Shown piece after piece: positions 47,325 through 62,776 of a DNA stretch of 64,000 bases. The stretch spans positions 62,001 through 126,000 of the forward strand of contig QBXO01000001.1 in NCBI GenBank assembly GCA_003284565.1, in the 5' to 3' direction. Under the pieces are notes generated by a model. The model ran no database searches and had not been told where the DNA came from. It saw nothing but the letters and a program-made list of their open reading frames with translations. Made by a program: the position numbers and the translations under genes. Source of the DNA: SAR116 cluster bacterium AG-321-K23. GTDB taxonomy: Bacteria; Pseudomonadota; Alphaproteobacteria; Puniceispirillales; Marisalimonadaceae. Numbering within the stretch: position 1 is the first letter of the stretch; every line of letters begins with the position of its first letter.

Positions 47325-48296
47325 ATGCTTATAGATGGTTTACAATATTGTAATTGGTCTGAAAAAATTTTCCGTGAATTGAGAGATTCAGATGTTACTG
47401 CCATACATGTGACAATTTCTTATCATGAACAATTCAGAGAGACAGTTTCAAATTTTGAACAATGGAATAAATGGTTTGAAAAATATCCTTCACTAATAAT
47501 GCCTGCTTATTTTGCAGAGGATGTTGAGCAAGCAAAAAAATTAAATAAAACTGCAATAATCTTTGGGTTTCAAAATCCTTCTCCAATTGAAGATGATATT
47601 GGTTTAGTGGAAATTCTTTACAGACTTGGAGGAAGATTTATGCAACTTTCATATAATAATCAATCTTTATTAGCTACTGGTTGTTATGAAGCAAATGATC
47701 CAGGTATTACTAGAATGGGTAAAGAAGTAATAAAAGAAATGAATAGAGTTGGAATGGTTGTTGATATGTCTCATTCCTCTGAAATTTCAACTCTAGAAGC
47801 TATTGAGTTATCCGAAAGACCAATTGTTATAAGTCACGCCAATCCGTCTTTTTGGCATTCTGCCAAAAGAAATAAATCTAATAATGTTTTATCCAAACTA
47901 GCTGAAAGTAATGGAATTTTGGGATTTTCACTTTATCCGCATCATCTAAATAATAGTAGTAATTGTTTGTTAGAAGATTTCTGTTCAATGATAGCTAGAA
48001 CTGTTGATATAATGGGAATAGATCATGTAGGTTTTGGATCAGATTTATGCCAGGATCAACCTGACAGTATTGTAGAATGGATGAGAGTAGGTAAATGGAC
48101 CAAAAATATTGACTATGGTGAAGGTTCTGCGTCTAATCCAGGTTTTCCGAATATGCCAATCTGGTTCAGGGATAATAGAGACTGGCATAATATAATGATG
48201 GGGTTAAAAGATATTGGTTTTAATGAAGAAGAAGTTGATAAAATAAAAGGTAAGAATTGGTTAAATTTTTTTAGAAACTCATTTAGGTCACTTTAA
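47325..48296 (+). CDS. Membrane dipeptidase family M19 (renal dipeptidase-like)
   Basis: A zinc metallopeptidase of 323 residues. The fold's landmarks are AIIFGFQNPSPIEDD with the metal Glu-equivalent region, MVVDMSHSSEISTLEAIELSERPIVISHANPSF carrying two metal His, and DHVGFGSDLCQD near 232-243 with the late Asp. M19 enzymes cleave dipeptides and related amides. First gene of a tight three-gene unit: the next gene starts three bases after its stop and the third two bases after that. This context suggests a catabolic or modification role beyond general peptide turnover. Confidence 0.84.
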   Translation: MLIDGLQYCNWSEKIFRELRDSDVTAIHVTISYHEQFRETVSNFEQWNKWFEKYPSLIMPAYFAEDVEQAKKLNKTAIIFGFQNPSPIEDDIGLVEILYRLGGRFMQLSYNNQSLLATGCYEANDPGITRMGKEVIKEMNRVGMVVDMSHSSEISTLEAIELSERPIVISHANPSFWHSAKRNKSNNVLSKLAESNGILGFSLYPHHLNNSSNCLLEDFCSMIARTVDIMGIDHVGFGSDLCQDQPDSIVEWMRVGKWTKNIDYGEGSASNPGFPNMPIWFRDNRDWHNIMMGLKDIGFNEEEVDKIKGKNWLNFFRNSFRSL

Positions 48297-48299
48297 ATT

Positions 48300-50003
48300 A
48301 TGGATTTTCAAACATCTCAAAATAAATTTGATTATAATCATCCTTTGAGACCTCCCTCAGTTGTAATGAAGCTTGATAGATTGGGAAGCTTTCACCAAAC
48401 ACGACTGTCTTTTGCAAGACGTCTCATAGATGATCTTAAATTTCAAAATTGCAAGATAGATATTCACAAATGGAATATTGATTATAATGGAATTGGAAGT
48501 GCTATTATTAAAATAGCTTTAAAAAATGAAACGTTGTCACTTGTAATCTTCTGCCATTCAATAAGTGATGAAGAAAGAACTGATAGAGTCATAGCTGAGA
48601 AATGGGATATGACTTTTTCGCTTTTTAGAGGTATCCCTAATAAAAACGAATTAAATCAATTATCAAAAAATTTGAAGATACAAGAATCAGGAAGACATAA
48701 TTCAAAACAGTTGACTTTAAGTAGAGCTAATAAATCTCAAAGAATATTTGAAAAAGTATTAAATGATTTATCGATTGGGAAACAGCCATCTAAAAAACTT
48801 ATCAATGAAGTAGGTTACCTTATCAGAACTACTGCAGTGTACGGCAATGGCAAATTTGGAATAGGAGATTTTTCAAACAACGATGGATCTAATTTTTTAG
48901 AAAAACCGTTTCAAGCAGAAATGTTGACTGTGTATCTAGTTAGATATTTTTCTATAAAATTAATTAATTTTTTAGCTAAAAAAAAAGGAGGGGAAAAATC
49001 TGTAACTCTTTCCAAACATCTCACAAAACATTTAGGAGTTGGCAATGCAACTGGTTTAGGAATGGCTCCATTTTTGGTAAACCATCAAGAGTTGATACAT
49101 CAATGGATCTACAATAGAGAAAAAGCTTTATCAAGAGTATTTTCAATTAAACGACTAGATAAAAAAACACAAAATAAAATTATTGATTATATCCATCAAG
49201 CATTCAAATACAGCTCGCAATGGAAAGTTGATGATAAATTACAGTCAAAAAAAATTGAAGAACTAAATTTAGACCTAAAAAAAATTCTTCAAAATGAAAA
49301 TCTTACTAAGCTTTTGAATTTTAGTTACCCTATTAAGAAGTTTTTTGATTTCTTTAAAGATGATATCACTTTAGAAACACAAGAAATACTAAACTCTATA
49401 TTTATTGAACCTTTTCCTGAGTTATTAGAAGATTTAGTAAATAATATGGGAGTAGAAGAAAAAAAATCTGTTTTAATAGGTTACACAGTCAATGATGTTT
49501 TAGAGATTATTAAAAATAATTTTAATTGGGCTCTTAAAATAGATACTAACAAACCTGAAGAAAATTATTGCTTCTGGTATACTTCTCAAACAAAATTAGA
49601 ACCACGTCTTGGTATTACAAAAAAAGATACTGGAATAGAGAAACAGTTACCTTTTGATATTGCTCATCAGATAAAACAAGCAGTAAATATATTAAATAAA
49701 TTACCTTCTAATATGACTGCCGCTGAAGTGATGATAAATCAACCAGAATTAAGGAATATAATCAAGAGAATTATCATCAATAAATCAATGCCATACAGCG
49801 AAATACAAAATAATTTAATTGGTAAGAATATGAAGCCAATTGATATTTTAAGGTGTAAATTAAGTTTTTTTGGAGCCTCCAAGTTTGATCCTAAATCTAA
49901 TTTATGGACAAGAATAACTCTATTTCAAGGAGCCCCATTGCCTAATGAATTATGGAAAACAAACGTAAATGATTGGCTGTTTCCAAATTTATCAAATGTG
50001 TAA
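48300..50003 (+). CDS. Unrecognised 567-residue protein between M19 dipeptidase and DUF3726 genes
   Basis: I do not recognise this family. It is soluble (no long hydrophobic helix), rich in Lys/Asn, and has several stretches that look conserved rather than random: HPLRPPSVVMKLDRLGSFHQ near 14-33, LIRTTAVYGNGKFGIGDF near 174-191, LGVGNATGLGMAPFLVNHQE near 245-264, and CFWYTSQTKLEPRLG near 424-438. The glycine-rich loop GVGNATGLGM could bind a ligand. Its start is three bases after the dipeptidase stop and the DUF3726 gene begins two bases after its stop, so the three proteins are very likely made together. No function is proposed. Confidence 0.8.
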   Translation: MDFQTSQNKFDYNHPLRPPSVVMKLDRLGSFHQTRLSFARRLIDDLKFQNCKIDIHKWNIDYNGIGSAIIKIALKNETLSLVIFCHSISDEERTDRVIAEKWDMTFSLFRGIPNKNELNQLSKNLKIQESGRHNSKQLTLSRANKSQRIFEKVLNDLSIGKQPSKKLINEVGYLIRTTAVYGNGKFGIGDFSNNDGSNFLEKPFQAEMLTVYLVRYFSIKLINFLAKKKGGEKSVTLSKHLTKHLGVGNATGLGMAPFLVNHQELIHQWIYNREKALSRVFSIKRLDKKTQNKIIDYIHQAFKYSSQWKVDDKLQSKKIEELNLDLKKILQNENLTKLLNFSYPIKKFFDFFKDDITLETQEILNSIFIEPFPELLEDLVNNMGVEEKKSVLIGYTVNDVLEIIKNNFNWALKIDTNKPEENYCFWYTSQTKLEPRLGITKKDTGIEKQLPFDIAHQIKQAVNILNKLPSNMTAAEVMINQPELRNIIKRIIINKSMPYSEIQNNLIGKNMKPIDILRCKLSFFGASKFDPKSNLWTRITLFQGAPLPNELWKTNVNDWLFPNLSNV

Positions 50004-50005
50004 TT

Positions 50006-50626
50006 ATGATCAGTGTTTCTTTAAATGAAATATACTCAGAAACTTATAAAGCACTACGAAGTGTTAATATTGAATGGAGTTTAGCTAAAGACTGTGCAAA
50101 CAAAGCAAAATGGTTGGCACAACACGGTGAAAATTTTCTTGGTTCAATTTTGAAAACAGCAGATCTTTATCAAAAACAAGACATAACTATTTCAATAAAT
50201 GAAAATACAAATGAAAAACCATTAGCTTCAGCTTTGGTAGCACTCCTTCTAGTAGAATATATTTCTGCAAATAGAATAACTTGGGAGGGTTATATTGACA
50301 ATACAAAATTTTTAATTGCTGCTATGGGGATAGTCGCAGAAGAACAACAAATTTATTTAATATTAGAAGACGAAAAAAAAAATATTGTAGCATTTACAAA
50401 AGATAAAACCATTCACGTTAAATCAAATTTAGATACTAACATTCCAAGTTATTGTTTCTTAAGAGAATATGATTTTATAGATAGAAAAAATATTAAATAT
50501 AAAAATCTAAAAAAAAATAAAGATGTTATAAAACTAAATGACAAATGTTGGGATAGATTGCAATCAATGGCATTTGAAACTTATGTGCCAGAAAGTGAAG
50601 CTTCAAAATCTGGAGCTGGATATTAA
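50006..50626 (+). CDS. DUF3726 family protein
   Basis: A 206-residue protein recognised as DUF3726 by its opening SLNEIYSETYKALRSVNIEWSLAKDCANKAKWLAQHG and by its ending FETYVPESEASKSGAGY. No activity is known. The N-terminal helix pattern is faintly like the first helices of YlbC/Ldh2-type dehydrogenases; this may be chance. The longest frame starts inside the upstream gene (49973); ATG 50006, two bases after the upstream stop, gives the family's usual N terminus and is preferred. It ends one base before the convergent enolase-family gene. Confidence 0.78.
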   Translation: MISVSLNEIYSETYKALRSVNIEWSLAKDCANKAKWLAQHGENFLGSILKTADLYQKQDITISINENTNEKPLASALVALLLVEYISANRITWEGYIDNTKFLIAAMGIVAEEQQIYLILEDEKKNIVAFTKDKTIHVKSNLDTNIPSYCFLREYDFIDRKNIKYKNLKKNKDVIKLNDKCWDRLQSMAFETYVPESEASKSGAGY

Positions 50627-50627
50627 T

Positions 50628-51725
50628 CTATTTTACTATGTAATCTTTTAAAACATTTGCATCAGGTTCATATCCTAAACCTATATTACCATTAATTTTA
50701 AAATAACCATCTTTCGGATTAAAAATTTCTACAGGATAAAGGTAAGCCTCAAGATCAATAAAAAATCTCTCTAAAAGCCCCGGATTAGGCATTGATTGAG
50801 CAAGATGCAATGTTGCTAAGAATCCTGGTCCAAAATATGGAGAATGTGGCATTACTTGTACTCCATAACTTTGAGAAATTGAAACAACTTTATTAAATTC
50901 AGTAATACCACCAACTTTTGTCACACTTGGTTGAGCATAATCAACAGCTTCAGCTTCAAACATTTTTTTAAATTCAAATGATGTACAGGCATTTTCCCCT
51001 GCTGCCAGTGGGATGAATGAATCAGACCTAAGATTTGATAAGCTTTCAAAATCTTCTGGTGGATTGATGGGTTCCTCTACCCAATATAAATTAAATTCTT
51101 CCCAATCATTAAGCATTTGTCTTGCTTCATCTCTTGTCCATGGACAATTAGTGTCAACCATAATTGGTATTTTATCACCAAGTACTTCCCTAGCTGCTCT
51201 AACTTCTGGAGTAAAAACTTCATGTAATTTTATATAATTATAACCTAAACTTTTAGCATGTGAACATCTATCTTGTACTGCTTCAGTATTTTCATAACGC
51301 CATAAGCTTGCATATGCAGGGATTTTCTTATTACCATCTGAGCCTAAAATATTGCACAATGGAAGATTGCTATATTTAGCTACAATATCCCATAAAGCAA
51401 TATCAACTCCACTTATAGCAAACATTGTAATTCCATAACGTCCAAAAAGATGAAGTTTTTTTTGTAATTCAAAATTTATATTCTGAACATTTAGTGGATT
51501 CTTTCCAATTAAGTGTGGTTTAACCATATTTAATATAACTTCTGAAACTGCTCTTCTACAATTAAATGAAAATGCATCTCCCCAACCAATAATACCATTA
51601 TCTGTTTCAATTTTAATAACACAAAAATCCATACCATCTTGTTTCAAAAAGTCAGCCGATGATGATTTAACACCGATAGAAAATGGTACTTTTAATTCGT
51701 AAACCTCTAAATTTGTTATTTTCAT
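50628..51725 (-). CDS. Mandelate racemase/muconate lactonizing enzyme-family protein (sugar-acid dehydratase-like)
   Basis: An enolase-superfamily enzyme of 365 residues. Metal ligands are D191 (MVDTNCPW), E217 (WVEEPI) and E244 (AAGENA). The second-strand base motif is K166-L-H168 instead of KxK, and H294 (VMPHSPY) is the expected general base on the last strands. The Asp that normally pairs with that His (QPDvt..GG) reads Ser267 in QPSVTKVGGITE. The family mostly dehydrates or epimerises acid sugars or amino-acid derivatives; the reaction here is unknown. Followed by the DUF2842 gene upstream and the DUF3726 gene convergently. Confidence 0.85.
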   Translation of the reverse strand: MKITNLEVYELKVPFSIGVKSSSADFLKQDGMDFCVIKIETDNGIIGWGDAFSFNCRRAVSEVILNMVKPHLIGKNPLNVQNINFELQKKLHLFGRYGITMFAISGVDIALWDIVAKYSNLPLCNILGSDGNKKIPAYASLWRYENTEAVQDRCSHAKSLGYNYIKLHEVFTPEVRAAREVLGDKIPIMVDTNCPWTRDEARQMLNDWEEFNLYWVEEPINPPEDFESLSNLRSDSFIPLAAGENACTSFEFKKMFEAEAVDYAQPSVTKVGGITEFNKVVSISQSYGVQVMPHSPYFGPGFLATLHLAQSMPNPGLLERFFIDLEAYLYPVEIFNPKDGYFKINGNIGLGYEPDANVLKDYIVK

Positions 51726-51742
51726 ATTAAACCTATATCAAT

Positions 51743-51946
51743 TCAATGGGCTTCGTTATCTGCCAACCATTTTATAACTTTAGTGGCTGGGTATAACCAC
51801 AGTAAACCTGCTAATATGTATATCAACCAGTCAATTGACCAATGATAACCGGTTATGTAATCAAAAATATACATAAAAATTGCCACGTAAATAATTAATG
51901 CAGGTATTATTCCAATTACAACTATCAAATGACGCCATCTTTTCAA
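51743..51946 (-). CDS. DUF2842 small membrane protein
   Basis: 67 residues with two transmembrane helices (LIVVIGIIPALIIYVAIFMY and WLIYILAGLLWLYPATKVI) and the ending KWLADNEAH. The WLYPATKVIKW motif is the mark of DUF2842, a family restricted to alphaproteobacteria in my recollection, which supports the taxonomic placement. Function unknown. Starts at TTG 51946 with AGGA upstream at a workable distance. Lies between the enolase-family and SDR genes on the same strand. Confidence 0.75.
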   Translation of the reverse strand: MKRWRHLIVVIGIIPALIIYVAIFMYIFDYITGYHWSIDWLIYILAGLLWLYPATKVIKWLADNEAH

Positions 51947-51972
51947 ATTTAAAATCCTAACTTTATCTTAAA

Positions 51973-52755
51973 TTAACTTGGTATTAATCCACCATCTATA
52001 TTATATGATTGACCGGAAATATTTCTAGCACCTTCAGAGGACAAAAATACTACCATTGATGCAATATCTTCTGGATTATTTGGTCTTTTGAGAGGAATAT
52101 CTCTTACATAATGTTTCATTATTTCTTCTTCAGTTTTATTTTGTTCTAAAGCTCTTTTTTTGACTATATTTGATAGTATATTCGTGTATGTAATACCTGG
52201 ACAAATTGAATTTACAGTTATTTCGTATTTTGCTAGTTCTTGAGCTGCTGTTTTTGTCAAACTAATTACAGCTCCTTTGCTAGCTGCATAAATTGCATTA
52301 GAAACATCGACAAAACCTTTTCCACCTACAGAAGCCATGTTAATAATTCTACCACCTTGCTTCTGCTTTATCATTTGATACGCTGCTAACTGCAAACAAA
52401 AAAATGTTCCTTTTGAATTTACATTATGTATCCAGTCCCAATCTCTTTCGGTTAAATCCATAATATTCGATGTTCTAGTTACACCAGCATTATTAACTAA
52501 AATATCAATCGTACCAAATTGATTAACAGTTTGTGTAATCATATTTTCTATATCATTTATTTTTGTAACATCAGTTTCAATTGAAATTCCAGATCCTTTA
52601 TTATTTAATATTATTTCTAAAGTTTGGTTAGCTTGTTTTAAATCTATATCAGCACAAGTAATGTTATATCCTTCATTGCTCATTGCAATTGCAATAGCTC
52701 TACCAATGCCACTTCCAGCACCAGTAATACAAACATTTTTAAAAATCCTACTCAT
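51973..52755 (-). CDS. Short-chain dehydrogenase/reductase
   Basis: A 260-residue classical SDR: CITGAGSGIGRAIAIAMSNEG near 9-29, VNNAGVTRTS, Ser in INMASVGGKG, YAASKGAVISLTK (YxxxK), ICPGITYTNILS, and the FabG-like C terminus FLSSEGARNISGQSYNIDGGLIPS. The close homologues are broad-range sugar or hydroxyacid dehydrogenases. It lies 17 bp from the VOC-family gene on the same strand, and the pair may serve the same catabolic route as the enolase-family enzyme; that is inference from context. Confidence 0.84.
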   Translation of the reverse strand: MSRIFKNVCITGAGSGIGRAIAIAMSNEGYNITCADIDLKQANQTLEIILNNKGSGISIETDVTKINDIENMITQTVNQFGTIDILVNNAGVTRTSNIMDLTERDWDWIHNVNSKGTFFCLQLAAYQMIKQKQGGRIINMASVGGKGFVDVSNAIYAASKGAVISLTKTAAQELAKYEITVNSICPGITYTNILSNIVKKRALEQNKTEEEIMKHYVRDIPLKRPNNPEDIASMVVFLSSEGARNISGQSYNIDGGLIPS

Positions 52756-52772
52756 ATTTTGTTCAATTTAAA

Positions 52773-53606
52773 CTAAACTTCTTGATTAATTTCTAACATG
52801 TTAGCATTAATATCATATAGATAAATCTGATGAAATCCTGGCATTGCGTATACTTTGGCATCAGAGTATAATATTTTTTCTTTATCAAGTTTAGCTGTCA
52901 AATTCGATAAATTTTTAATTGTGAATGCTGGATGCCCCGCAATTGATGGATTATGTGCAAAATTATTTCTATAACCAAACCCATCGTCAGGCTTTATAAC
53001 ATGTAATCCTCTATTATTATTAGATAATGGTAATATTGCTAATTCAGATGGATCAATACTGAAATTACCCCTGTTAATTGGAGCATCCCATTGACCTTCC
53101 TTCATACCCAATAAATCACAAAAAAAGCTCATAGATTCTCTAACATCTAAAGATTCCAAATTCATGTGATGAATTCCCCAATCCAAACCCATCGACCACC
53201 CGTTCATATGATCTTCAAAACCGGAAGTGTTTTCAACTAAATGTATTAAATTTAATGAAGGCTCTTGAACGTATAAACTCTTAAATAATTCATTATCTGA
53301 TTTTTTATAAATAAACTTTATATCATTGAGTTCTAATTTTTCTCTAATATTTTCAAGATTATCTACCAATAGTGTAATATAACTTCTTCTGCTCTGTATG
53401 TGATTTGAAATTGATAAATCTGGTAATGGTTTAAACAATCTTAATCCAAAACCTTTATTACCAAAAAAAACACTTTCTTCATTTTTAAATAAAGTTTGAT
53501 AAAGTGTTTCTTGGTTATCATTATAACCAATAAGCATATCATAAAATTGTTTTGATTTTTGTAAATCATAAACAGGAATAGAGACATTCAAAATTGTCCA
53601 ATTCAT
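52773..53606 (-). CDS. VOC-family protein with two glyoxalase-like domains
   Basis: A 277-residue protein made of two vicinal-oxygen-chelate modules, the first from about 1-130 (LNVSIPVYDLQKSKQFYDMLIGY), the second from about 145-277 (WGIHHMNLESLDVRESMSFFCDLLGMKEGQW and HPAFTIKNLSNLTAKLDKEK). The C-terminal module keeps the metal His in IHHM, a His in AGHPAF and the Glu near NMLEI, as in extradiol dioxygenases and glyoxalases. The substrate is unknown. Between an SDR gene and the divergent TauD-type gene. Confidence 0.75.
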   Translation of the reverse strand: MNWTILNVSIPVYDLQKSKQFYDMLIGYNDNQETLYQTLFKNEESVFFGNKGFGLRLFKPLPDLSISNHIQSRRSYITLLVDNLENIREKLELNDIKFIYKKSDNELFKSLYVQEPSLNLIHLVENTSGFEDHMNGWSMGLDWGIHHMNLESLDVRESMSFFCDLLGMKEGQWDAPINRGNFSIDPSELAILPLSNNNRGLHVIKPDDGFGYRNNFAHNPSIAGHPAFTIKNLSNLTAKLDKEKILYSDAKVYAMPGFHQIYLYDINANMLEINQEV

Positions 53607-53733
53607 CTATAAACCCTCTATTTTTATGTAATAGTTTATATCTTGTTTTAAAATTATAAATTTAACAAATATTTACAAAAAGAACAATTTCAATAAAATT
53701 AAATAATAAGTTTTTGTACTGGGAAAATTTACT

Positions 53734-54648
53734 ATGGATTTTATAAATTTAACTAAAGATTTTGGAGTGGAAATAAGAAATTTTGATTGCTCAAAAAAAA
53801 TTGAGTGTGATGAATTGAATTTACTAAAAAAAACTATTCAAGATAGACATTTCATCTGTTTCAAAAATCAAAAATTAGATGGAAATACACTTGCTACTTT
53901 TACAAAAAACTTTGGTAAACTAGAAGCTTATCCAGAAAAAGATAAAACCAAAGGTAAAATAGAAATCTTTAACGTTTCTAATGTTTCTGAAGATGGTGCG
54001 CATTTAGATCCAGATGACCAAAGAGTTGTTCTTCAAAAAAATAATTCAAGGTGGCACACAGATAGCTCTTATAGATATTTACCGTCTGTTTTTTCTATTC
54101 TTTATGGTCAAGAAACTTTGCCCACTGAAGTAGAAGGAGGACAAACTCAGTTTTCAAACATGTTAGTTGCTTATGATCATCTCCCTGAAGATAAAAAAAA
54201 TCTATTACAACCACTCCATCAAGTACATTCTTACAACGATATAAGAAGATTAGAACCTAGTCTTCCGGAACTTACTTATGAAGAAAAATGTAACTTTCCA
54301 CCTGTAACTCATCCAATCGTTAGAGTTCATGCCGACAGAAATTTTAGGAAATCTCTTTATTTTACTTCTAATACGAGTTTAGAAATTGGTGGAATGAGCC
54401 TAAAACAAGGTAAGGAGTTACATAAATGGCTTGTTGATTATATTAGCCAACCTAAATTTTGCTATACTCATAATTGGCAGAAAAATGATCTAATAATGTG
54501 GGATAACAGAGTATTGTTACATAGAGTAATTCCTTATGATTACGCCAAATATAGAAGAGCGATGATTAGAGGAACTGTCGAAGGAAAAGATCCCGTACTT
54601 GGTCCATTTTCTAATGAAGTAAGATTTAGAACTGACAATAAAGTTTAA
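53734..54648 (+). CDS. TauD/TfdA-family Fe(II)/2-oxoglutarate dioxygenase
   Basis: A 304-residue dioxygenase. The iron-binding HxD is H108-T-D110 in SRWHTDSSYRYLP; the distal His is in MWDNRVLLHRVIPYDYAKYRRAMIRGT, which also holds the 2-oxoglutarate-binding Arg. SILYGQETLPTEVEGGQTQFSNM is the usual TfdA-type core. Such enzymes hydroxylate taurine, alkyl sulfonates, aryloxyacids or other small acids; the substrate is open. Divergent from the VOC/SDR genes over 127 bp. Confidence 0.86.
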   Translation: MDFINLTKDFGVEIRNFDCSKKIECDELNLLKKTIQDRHFICFKNQKLDGNTLATFTKNFGKLEAYPEKDKTKGKIEIFNVSNVSEDGAHLDPDDQRVVLQKNNSRWHTDSSYRYLPSVFSILYGQETLPTEVEGGQTQFSNMLVAYDHLPEDKKNLLQPLHQVHSYNDIRRLEPSLPELTYEEKCNFPPVTHPIVRVHADRNFRKSLYFTSNTSLEIGGMSLKQGKELHKWLVDYISQPKFCYTHNWQKNDLIMWDNRVLLHRVIPYDYAKYRRAMIRGTVEGKDPVLGPFSNEVRFRTDNKV

Positions 54649-60356: not shown

Positions 60357-62776
60357 CTCAAACCAACTTCACTTAACGTTTCATTTTCAAGTTCTTCAAG
60401 TAAATATTCTTCCATTTCGGATTTATCAATAGTTTGTCTATTGATTTCTAATATTAGAGGTACTGCCAGTGGCGAAATTCTATCAAGTTTTTCATGAGTA
60501 ATATTTTTTTCAATTCTTTTCAAAAAATCACTCAATCTATCTAAATCTATTAACCCTCTATAAGAATCTTCTCTTGCTACTTCTAATAAAAGATGCTTTG
60601 GCTCATGTTTTTTAAGAACATTGAAAATTAAATCAGAGTTGAATAATACCTGTTTACCAGTTTTTTTCTGACCAGGTACTGAACGCTCAATTAAACCTGA
60701 AATAATAGCAGCATCTCTAAAATTTTTTTTCAATAATGGTGTCTCTTCTAACCATTCATATAAATCATCTAACATAAGATCATCATTTAGGATAATATTT
60801 ACATCTATGACCTCATTAATTGACCATATAGCTAAGGCATAATCTGTGGCAACAAAACTGATAGGTTTATATCCAATGCGTTGCATTTTTTTTGACATTA
60901 AAAAACCTAGTGTTTGATTGGCATTCCTTCCCTCAAAAGTGTAACAAATTAAAAAAAATCTTTTTTTACCTCTCATTAAACGAGGGAAAGTTTCAACTAA
61001 AAGCCCGTTTAAAGATGGTAAATTTGAAAATTGTGATTGTAGCTTTAACCATTCATTAATTTGATTTGGAAAATTTTTCCAAAATTGTTTTTTGCTCAAT
61101 AATTTTCTTACTTCAATTGAAAGTTCTGTGCTTAGAGGTAATCTACCTCCAGCGTAAGATGGTATTTTAGGTTGTGTATGACTTGTTGATCTAACAATAA
61201 CATTATTATTTGAAATACTTTGATATTCTAAAACTCTACCACTAAATAAAAAAGTGTCTCCTTCATTTAACCCTTCTATAAACCATTCTTCAACTTGACC
61301 TAAAGTTCTATTCCCTAATTTTACTTTAAGCATATAAGATTCAACAATAGTTCCTACATTTAATCTATATCTATTTCGTACACTTTTATTTTTAATTGCA
61401 TAAAATTTATTTTTATTAACGCCTATCTTAGAATATTGTTCATAATGTTTCAGTGAATATCCCCCATTCTTCACGAACTCTAAAACTTCAAAAAACTTTA
61501 TTTTTGTTAAATTTCTATATGGCCATGCATTTATTACTTGATTATACAACTCATCAACTTGAAATGGTTCACTACAAGCAACACCTAGAATATGCTGGGC
61601 AAGAACATCTAAACTCCCCTGTTTTTCTTTTGTTTCATCTAATAACTTATTTTTAATTGAATTTATTGCAGATAAACATTCTAAATATTCAAATCTATTA
61701 GATGGTACTAAAAGTGCATTTGAAGGTTCATCAAATCTATGATTACTTCTTCCTATGCGTTGTAAAAATCTTGAAATCCCCTTAGGTGATCCAATTTGAA
61801 CAACTAAATCAACATCTCCCCAATCAATTCCAAGATCTAAAGAACTTGTTGCTACTACACAGTCAATTTTTCCAGAAGACATTAAGCTTTCTACTTTTCT
61901 TCTTATTTCTTTTTCTAGACTTCCATGATGAATAGCGATTCTTAAATTATTTTCATTCTCTTGCCAAAGTTTATTAAAAACTAACTCTGCTTGTGCTCTT
62001 GTGTTAACGAAAACAATTGTCAAAGACGATTTCTTTATTTTTTGGTATATATCTCTAATTGCATAACTTGCCATATGACCAGACCAAGGAACTCTGTTAA
62101 TAGTTTCTAAAATATCTATTTTTGGGACAGATGTTTCTTCGACGTTTAAAGTTTTCGCCTTTTTTTTTGAAGTTAGAAATTTTAATACAGTATTTTTATT
62201 TTTTACAGTCGCAGATAAACCTATTTTTTTGCAATCTGGACTTATTGAATTAATTCTAGATAAATTAAGTGAAAGCAAATCACCTCTTTTCGTATTGACT
62301 AGAGTGTGTATTTCATCAATAACCAAATATTTTAGATCCTTAAAATAATCTTTTGATTCCTTGTTTGATAATAATAATGCCAAAGACTCAGGGGTAGTCA
62401 TTAGCATATGAGGGGGTAAAACCTTCTGCCTATTCTTTTTGTAGGCTGAGGTGTCACCTGTTCTTGTTTCAACTCTTATATTCAAGCCTTGATCTTCAAT
62501 AGGACTTGTTAAATTTCTATGAACATCGATAGTAAGAGCTTTAAGAGGAGAAATATATAGTGTATGCAACTTATTTTTTTTTGGTTTGTTATTTATTAAA
62601 TCATTTAGTGATGGTAAAAAACCAGCTAATGTCTTACCTCCTCCAGTAGGAGCAACCAGTAGAACATCATAACCATTCTCAGACAATTTCAAGGTTTCAA
62701 TTTGATGGTTATAAATGGCCCAATTATTTTTTTTTAGCCAATTATAAATGGGTTCAATCTTTAAAATATCTGACAT
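60353..62776 (-). CDS. Ligase-associated DNA damage response DEXH-box helicase (Lhr-like)
   Basis: An 807-residue superfamily 2 helicase. Walker A is APTGGGKT at 42-49, DEIH near 151-154, the SAT motif in GLSATVKN, and motif VI in QRIGRSNHRFDEPS near 342-355; ATSSLDLGIDWGDVDLVVQIG gives motif V. The C-terminal region matches the Lhr-type extension (DNA-binding and wHTH parts). Members unwind nucleic acid with 3'-to-5' polarity. Only 17 bp separate its ATG from that of the divergent exonuclease gene, and pdeM overlaps its stop. Confidence 0.92.
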   Translation of the reverse strand: MSDILKIEPIYNWLKKNNWAIYNHQIETLKLSENGYDVLLVAPTGGGKTLAGFLPSLNDLINNKPKKNKLHTLYISPLKALTIDVHRNLTSPIEDQGLNIRVETRTGDTSAYKKNRQKVLPPHMLMTTPESLALLLSNKESKDYFKDLKYLVIDEIHTLVNTKRGDLLSLNLSRINSISPDCKKIGLSATVKNKNTVLKFLTSKKKAKTLNVEETSVPKIDILETINRVPWSGHMASYAIRDIYQKIKKSSLTIVFVNTRAQAELVFNKLWQENENNLRIAIHHGSLEKEIRRKVESLMSSGKIDCVVATSSLDLGIDWGDVDLVVQIGSPKGISRFLQRIGRSNHRFDEPSNALLVPSNRFEYLECLSAINSIKNKLLDETKEKQGSLDVLAQHILGVACSEPFQVDELYNQVINAWPYRNLTKIKFFEVLEFVKNGGYSLKHYEQYSKIGVNKNKFYAIKNKSVRNRYRLNVGTIVESYMLKVKLGNRTLGQVEEWFIEGLNEGDTFLFSGRVLEYQSISNNNVIVRSTSHTQPKIPSYAGGRLPLSTELSIEVRKLLSKKQFWKNFPNQINEWLKLQSQFSNLPSLNGLLVETFPRLMRGKKRFFLICYTFEGRNANQTLGFLMSKKMQRIGYKPISFVATDYALAIWSINEVIDVNIILNDDLMLDDLYEWLEETPLLKKNFRDAAIISGLIERSVPGQKKTGKQVLFNSDLIFNVLKKHEPKHLLLEVAREDSYRGLIDLDRLSDFLKRIEKNITHEKLDRISPLAVPLILEINRQTIDKSEMEEYLLEELENETLSEVGLS

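Follow-up and report, generated by a model that had tools for sequence, protein, structure and literature searches.

Surface seawater is rich in SAR116 and similar bacteria with small genomes, and homarine-type osmolytes are a labile pool of carbon and nitrogen. An operon for homarine catabolism, homABCDER, has reportedly been described by Ferrer-Gonzalez et al. in 2026 (Nat Microbiol 11:1531) and is said to hold six genes, one of them a regulator. Our literature search found no paper naming homABCDER, and the excerpts of the homarine literature at hand (including PMC12817926, PMC9038784 and PMC9723723) held no list of homarine genes that we could find. Excerpts of two papers state that Ruegeria pomeroyi draws homarine down rapidly (PMC12817926), that Mgd takes part in homarine catabolism (PMC13390433, citing Ferrer-Gonzalez et al.) and that tmaR, an AraC-type gene, often adjoins mgd (PMC13390433). 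Here we compare with these systems a set of three genes, the trio hereafter, found in a stretch of 64,000 nucleotides from SAR116 cluster bacterium AG-321-K23 (positions 62,001 to 126,000 of contig QBXO01000001.1), which we call the window:

47325-48296, + strand: M19-like protein, 323 aa (amino acids), PF01244 membrane-dipeptidase family with an apparently non-canonical metal site
48300-50003, + strand: X567, the name given here to a 567-aa protein with no family match
50006-50626, + strand: DUF3726 protein, 206 aa from the ATG at 50006, with a predicted shortened Ldh_2-like fold

The original prediction was of three tightly spaced genes on one strand, and the open reading frames are indeed separated by 3 bases (M19-X567) and 2 bases (X567-DUF3726), all on the + strand; the listing of open reading frames also allows a longer, TTG-start form of the DUF3726 frame from 49973. 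The trio is real, conserved and functionally linked. We read it, with a probability of about 0.6, as the central part of a module that breaks down small compounds of the N-methylated or betaine type; the form linked to an aldehyde dehydrogenase (ALDH) would most likely be the homarine operon, and the window copy stands alone. New here are the SAR116 form that stands alone, a predicted Ldh_2-like fold for DUF3726, the change in the M19 metal site and a second type of operon.

Conservation and genomic company of the trio

The trio had been put forward as conserved, and the survey of X567 neighbourhoods suggested at that time was carried out on an alphaproteobacterial sample of 387 genomes, the window's own included, of which 57 carry X567. 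For the linkage counts, 56 X567 loci were taken with flanks reaching up to 8 kb from 54 of these 57 genomes (two of which contributed two copies each; G000, G102 and G113 omitted), together with 40 hand-placed control regions, each 17.6 kb long, from 38 of the same X567 genomes; the limits were 200 bits for M19, 500 bits for ALDH and 250 bits for Ldh_2, and DUF3726 at the loci was counted with a profile built on its aligned members (alignment A3). M19 lies near X567 in 48/56 loci and DUF3726 in 53/56, against 0/40 controls for either, and 42 of the 45 loci having all three genes keep the order M19, X567, DUF3726 on one strand, the others showing a divergent M19 (L099, L103) or another order (L134). 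At the genome level DUF3726 was found in 52 genomes, all among the 57 with X567, and in 0/330 genomes lacking it (lists compared by hand). The X567 genomes without DUF3726 (G086, G143, G323, G352, G393) have partial, weak X567 matches that represent a divergent form, and two of them, G143 and G352, give a DUF3726 match at a laxer limit, of just 24 bits in G352. In Mesorhizobium sp. 131-2-1 a single 814-aa fusion protein joins X567 (residues 14-569) with DUF3726 (residues 596-814), which points to a shared job. The pairwise identities of X567 and M19 are correlated as well (Spearman 0.66, 2016 pairs), a value that cannot separate co-evolution from common descent and is not relied on.

Closer to the window, X567 occurs in 25 genomes of an order-level sample (41 genomes, the window's own included) and in 9/9 genera; among the 15 order genomes with completeness of at least 90% and contamination of no more than 5%, it is found in 14. 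At the 25 named loci (L002-L026), M19 and DUF3726 are each present in 23; contig ends truncate L023 and L026, and L019 has no M19 despite 3.2 kb of sequence upstream. A single-sequence search found no DUF3726 at L045 (G029). The ratio of nonsynonymous to synonymous substitution rates against three or four close loci is 0.06-0.11 for the M19 gene, 0.12-0.17 for X567 and 0.22-0.36 for DUF3726, and the trio is under purifying selection. Because it recurs in relatives and is kept by selection, it is not a chance arrangement.

In some of the genomes outside the window's genus the trio belongs to larger operons. On plasmids of Pararhizobium, Shinella, Aminobacter and Aliiroseovarius a divergent LysR gene is followed by ALDH, M19, X567, DUF3726 and Ldh_2 and then by a betaine transporter, which is of the glycine-betaine ABC type, or BCCT in Aliiroseovarius. 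The same operon in Mesorhizobium has a branched-chain-type ABC transporter, while the operons of Phaeobacter inhibens DSM 17395 (trio genes PGA1_RS19005-19015) and of Sulfitobacter consist of LysR, ALDH, M19, X567 and DUF3726 with no adjoining Ldh_2, Sulfitobacter with a BCCT gene inside the operon. On the Phaeobacter plasmid X567 is seen at two locations. In Vibrio campbellii and Caballeronia the order is LysR, ALDH, M19, BCCT, X567, DUF3726. Within SAR116, four genomes of the family f4 (G030, G033, G036, G039) carry ALDH-M19-X567-DUF3726 with an ALDH 64-65% identical to that of Pararhizobium, preceded in G039 by ProX-ProW-ProV; a fifth, G027, has no such ALDH. ALDH was counted at 17/56 X567 loci, Ldh_2 at 22/56 and LysR at 9/56, each against 0/40 controls, and a betaine transporter at 14/56 against 2/40 (P 0.012); a GbdR-like regulator, at 3/56 against 1/40, is not significantly linked. 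At the set limits 11 of the 45 trio loci have both ALDH and Ldh_2 and 17 have neither, though L056, one of these 17, carries an Ldh_2 gene scoring 219 bits. In Shinella, Aliiroseovarius and G094 the operon has sarcosine-oxidase-type genes and a regulator of the AraC/GlxA type close by.

By comparison of gene numbers, the ALDH-linked form is quite probably the homarine operon published by Ferrer-Gonzalez et al. in 2026: the five structural genes and one regulator that it is said to have correspond in number to ALDH, M19, X567, DUF3726 and Ldh plus LysR. The suggestion of an undescribed pathway or protein complex is favoured by the linkage and the gene fusion and weakened by the probable description of the full operon form in the 2026 homarine paper. 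Since the novel core is surrounded by betaine transporters, an ALDH, a reductase of the Ldh_2 type and, with less certainty, N-demethylases, we propose that the module breaks down compounds with N-methylated quaternary or ring nitrogen. X567 would be the main catalytic subunit, DUF3726 a small subunit derived from Ldh_2 and the M19-like protein a single-metal or metal-free partner, and together they may convert an imported quaternary or ring nitrogen compound to an open-chain amino-acid intermediate, which in full operons ALDH would oxidise and Ldh_2 reduce. An N-demethylase of the sarcosine-oxidase type (Mgd in the case of homarine) could take off the methyl group. As homarine amounts to the N-methylglutamate chain plus one carbon, a ring-opened intermediate bearing a formyl or carbonyl group would need cleavage, oxidation and reduction, with ring opening and cleavage presumably done by the trio and the redox steps by ALDH and Ldh_2. 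The window copy would be a stand-alone version acting on homarine or a related compound. With three genes and none of the dehydrogenases of full operons, such a version gives a hint as to the genes responsible for the core chemistry.

The three proteins

X567 was first described as lying outside known families, and this holds: no credible family match was found in Pfam, NCBIfam or PDB sequences. Its best Pfam match (0.006) is below the family cut-off and was seen in 1/39 aligned members, the Pfam matches among these 39 being scattered over 14 families with one member each, and profile searches of PDB sequences returned best E values of 0.033, none and 1.1, nothing credible. The structure prediction also suggested for it was run and yielded no usable model: with an 18-row alignment the AlphaFold2 (AF2) model reached a predicted local distance difference test (pLDDT) score of 53.5, too poor to use, and its Foldseek matches (best E 0.02, template modelling (TM) score about 0.1) were rejected as unusable. 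Across 42 X567 sequences spanning two subfamilies, 42 residues are invariant, among them R93, R96, W102, D103, R142, N144, R148, Q162, Y173 and R176, and further G246-x-G-N249, H262, E274, E370, W426, E434-P-R436, R490, R518 and R538; residues 246-258 read GVGNATGLGMAPF. Judged from the alignment, such invariance is as expected of an active site, and the proposed module gives this unannotated protein family a testable role.

The DUF3726 protein had been treated as an orphan, a description that no longer fits well, as it has relatives and its model looks like a cut-down Ldh_2 dehydrogenase. The window's protein scores 20.7 bits against PF12525, where the cut-off is 22.1, and 35/35 aligned members, the window's included, match this family at E<=0.1. 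The AF2 model (pLDDT 74.8) aligns with Ldh_2-type enzymes in the first 15 entries, whose membership was judged from their names, at VIA Z 8.4-11.5 with root-mean-square deviations (rmsd) of 3.7-4.6 over 149-174 residues, the next row having Z 5.0. These matches span nearly the whole length and comprise malate/lactate, ureidoglycolate, sulfolactate, diketogulonate and piperideine-carboxylate enzymes, with YiaK 1nxu at Z 11.5, rmsd 4.4 and 165 aligned residues. The fold of the model is thus that of YiaK 1nxu, ureidoglycolate dehydrogenase 4fjs and piperideine-2-carboxylate reductase 1wtj, but DUF3726 has 206 aa against 313-361 aa in these chains. Other methods gave fainter signals: Foldseek by itself gives weak matches (best E 8.5e-3, TM 0.39), hhalign against the operon Ldh_2 gives P 7.6e-4 with a probability of 25% over 63 N-terminal columns (X567 control, P 0.22), and 2/35 members match Pfam Ldh_2 at E<=0.1 (best E 0.0097), short of the Ldh_2 cut-off; PDB sequence searches with DUF3726 found no Ldh_2 match. 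We therefore propose a fold for DUF3726, which by its model looks like a shortened Ldh_2 relative. No paper naming DUF3726 was found in the literature search. That the protein models as a cut-down Ldh_2 fold and directly precedes a full Ldh_2 gene in many operons could also mean that DUF3726 and X567 are a non-enzymatic pair, a chaperone or regulator for the Ldh_2 or the M19 protein. We consider this improbable, as 23/45 trio loci have no Ldh_2 of at least 250 bits in the fetched stretch and the 42 invariant X567 residues are shared across two subfamilies.

The M19-like protein matches PF01244 at E 3.7e-73 (246.9 bits, cut-off 26), so that a Peptidase_M19 domain is present, and its closest solved structure is 2i5g (E 8.5e-55). 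Its metal site was compared with that of human renal dipeptidase, whose metal ligands we take to include His20, Asp22 and the bridging Glu125, with His198, His219 and Asp288 at the second site; the position of His152 was compared as well. Among 64 aligned M19 proteins from X567 loci, positions H20, D22 and E125 are L in 61, Y in 58 and Q in 64, and the position of H152 is Tyr in 64/64, within a conserved L-T/S-Y-N motif. The binuclear zinc ligands (HxD and bridging Glu) are accordingly missing from the M19-like protein; the E to Q change is directly visible in the alignment with GliJ, and the HxD loss is read from a DGL start that aligns with 2i5g and from the DGHND motif, with the Pfam alignment starting only at profile position 37. 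H198, H219, R230 and D288 are retained in 64/64, so the second-site residues His198, His219 and Asp288 are in place. From these residues the subgroup is probably unable to hold the usual binuclear metal site and, because three metal-ligand positions are lost, the M19-like protein is probably no ordinary dipeptidase. The protein keeps its family fold, but the label of amide hydrolase given to it earlier becomes doubtful through the loss of residues that define M19 dipeptidases, and genes named 'membrane dipeptidase' in such operons probably do not encode dipeptidases. Dipeptide scavenging by an ordinary M19 dipeptidase and two accessory proteins would agree with the strong PF01244 match, but is very hard to reconcile with the changed ligands and the Tyr at position 152 in nearly all or all 64 relatives, or with the annotated operon partners, which are betaine or amino-acid-type transporters and oxidoreductases.

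The structure 2i5g, an M19 'amidohydrolase', has the altered FQN motif and the DGL start in common with the window's protein, and is presumably PA5396 of P. aeruginosa, which we take to lie beside dgcAB for dimethylglycine demethylation. The literature search found no paper joining PA5396 with a dipeptidase. In an excerpt of one report, genes for a hypothetical protein and a dipeptidase precede dgcAB in Vibrio natriegens and P. aeruginosa (PMC12093977).

The SAR116 copy and its substrate

Several observations weigh against assigning the window's trio to the homarine module. In its own locus the operon partners ALDH, Ldh_2 and LysR are absent beside the trio, leaving just the three middle genes of the homarine operon, and the window's genus lacks an ortholog of the ALDH found in the operons (best identity 32-33% in G000, G007, G014 and G022, of which G014 is 99% complete) and only distant Ldh_2 genes away from the trio (34-36% in G000, G007 and G022, 25% and partial in G014). 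A SoxA-family match at E<=1e-50 was found in 13 of the 15 genomes queried, but neither in G014, which has X567 at 99% completeness, nor in G009. A tree of 42 X567 proteins places the window in a clade of 8 rows with 100/100 support, all without ALDH (the window, four named close relatives and three family f2 genomes), and the four ALDH-bearing SAR116 proteins and the Aliiroseovarius copy are in a separate clade of 13 rows (100/99). G170 and G250 each have one ALDH-linked and one ALDH-less X567 copy, and the clades may therefore differ in substrate. X567 is also patchy in the window's genus: 13/25 genomes, a set with many incomplete members, have it, and G009, which is 90% complete, does not. 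As to the module at large, 8/56 X567 loci have no nearby M19 of at least 200 bits (one of them, L094, has a partial M19 of 158 bits); apart from these loci, we encountered neither unlinked genes nor a known family for X567, the two outcomes that would have spoken against the trio from the start. The linkage to an N-demethylase (SoxA/SoxB or DMGDH-like) is weak, at 9/56 loci against 1/40 controls (P 0.042), the SoxB beside the Shinella operon passes the NCBIfam sarcosine-oxidase model, which does not mark it as Mgd, and the two regulators beside the Shinella and Aliiroseovarius operons have the choline regulator GbdR as best match, below cut-off, which does not mark either as a TmaR relative.

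The window's trio could instead be a separate branch for a different N-heterocycle or betaine, not homarine, with the module recruited several times with different partners, a reading to which we give somewhat less than an even chance. Besides the distinct clade and the missing SoxA-family gene of G014, an Amdase/Asp-Glu-racemase-family gene stands adjacent and convergent to DUF3726 in two SAR116 relatives of the window's clade, G025 (L052:6387-7193) and G034 (L060:6502-7323), with an isochorismatase-family gene on the other side in G025 (L052:10724-11341). Maleate isomerase and maleamate amidohydrolase, two enzymes of nicotinate degradation, belong to these families. However, G028 is of the ALDH-less clade and still has a betaine-type ABC transporter, ProX-ProW-ProV (with a PF04069 match), directly before M19, and the key residues of M19 and X567 are identical between clades. 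The substrate of the window copy is probably of the betaine or pyridine kind; the chance that it is homarine itself is at best about even.

The module recurs in a more divergent setting. In S. meliloti pSymB, Bosea and Variovorax, X567 relatives about 30% identical to the Pararhizobium protein are followed by a small protein of 236-242 aa and then by M19, the HxD residues of which are again lost and the bridging E replaced by Q. The small protein ends in an SRRHAG...DETD pattern similar to DUF3726; none of the three examined matches PF12525, and 2/3 have a weak Ldh_2 match (E 0.0054 and 0.11). An X567 relative, a DUF3726-like small protein and a site-altered M19 thus adjoin each other here as in the window, but with a different gene order, an IclR regulator and other transporters. 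In S. meliloti this operon also holds aminotransferase, SSADH and RidA genes, and such partners would suit a separate branch. The trio looks like a module reused with different partners. We put forward, tentatively and with the odds against it, that X567, the DUF3726 mini-Ldh and the site-altered M19 form one new enzyme type that opens N-methylated or aromatic N-heterocycles, occurs in at least two kinds of operon and in SAR116 serves, as a stand-alone copy, for a marine compound outside assigned pathways.

Side observations around the loci

In S. meliloti pSymB (L181:9944-20744) the X567-like gene, the small protein and M19 are followed by an ABC transporter, a class-III aminotransferase, an SSADH and two RidA genes, with IclR in front. 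Trigonelline was considered as substrate of the Sinorhizobium pSymB copy and is not supported, because the X567 copy sits on pSymB and not on pSymA; in an excerpt of a published report, a strain that lacks pSymA fails to grow on trigonelline, an observation pointing to pSymA (PMC4207669).

In G028 a gene for a DAO-type FAD (flavin adenine dinucleotide) oxidoreductase (L057:13879-15231) lies upstream of ProX-ProW-ProV and the trio, and it is possible that it is the N-demethylase of the same operon. In the genome G000 one SoxA-family gene over the cut-off is at G000:C6:20088-23003, a match that does not distinguish Mgd from sarcosine oxidase; the same contig (L187:6523-15787) holds a SoxBDAG-type cluster and transporter genes, with an Ldh_2 gene about 3 kb beyond. 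G007 and G022 have a like arrangement, with the Ldh_2 about 3-4 kb from the SoxBDAG-type cluster among transporter genes, and no single-locus link between this cluster and the trio was found in the window's genus. In the small genomes G214 and G289 the distance between SoxA and X567 is about 6.6 and 7.6 kb, and some of the genes in between look purE/purK-like by eye.

At the window's locus an aldo/keto reductase gene lies upstream of the trio on the opposite strand and an enolase-superfamily gene downstream is convergent to it. The latter belongs to a block of enolase-superfamily (MR_MLE), SDR, two-domain VOC and TauD-family genes at 50628-54648, 3' of the trio, which is syntenic in 8/8 loci listed out of the 25 named (L002, L007, L008, L011, L013, L017, L020, L022), with the VOC gene absent in L022; it does not adjoin the trio in the other SAR116 families inspected (L052-L060). 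Finally, broken frames occur in two named loci, in DUF3726 of L002 (7674-8325) and in X567 of L025 (5959-7663), and a broken X567 of the L025 type is present in G001 as well, with a stop.

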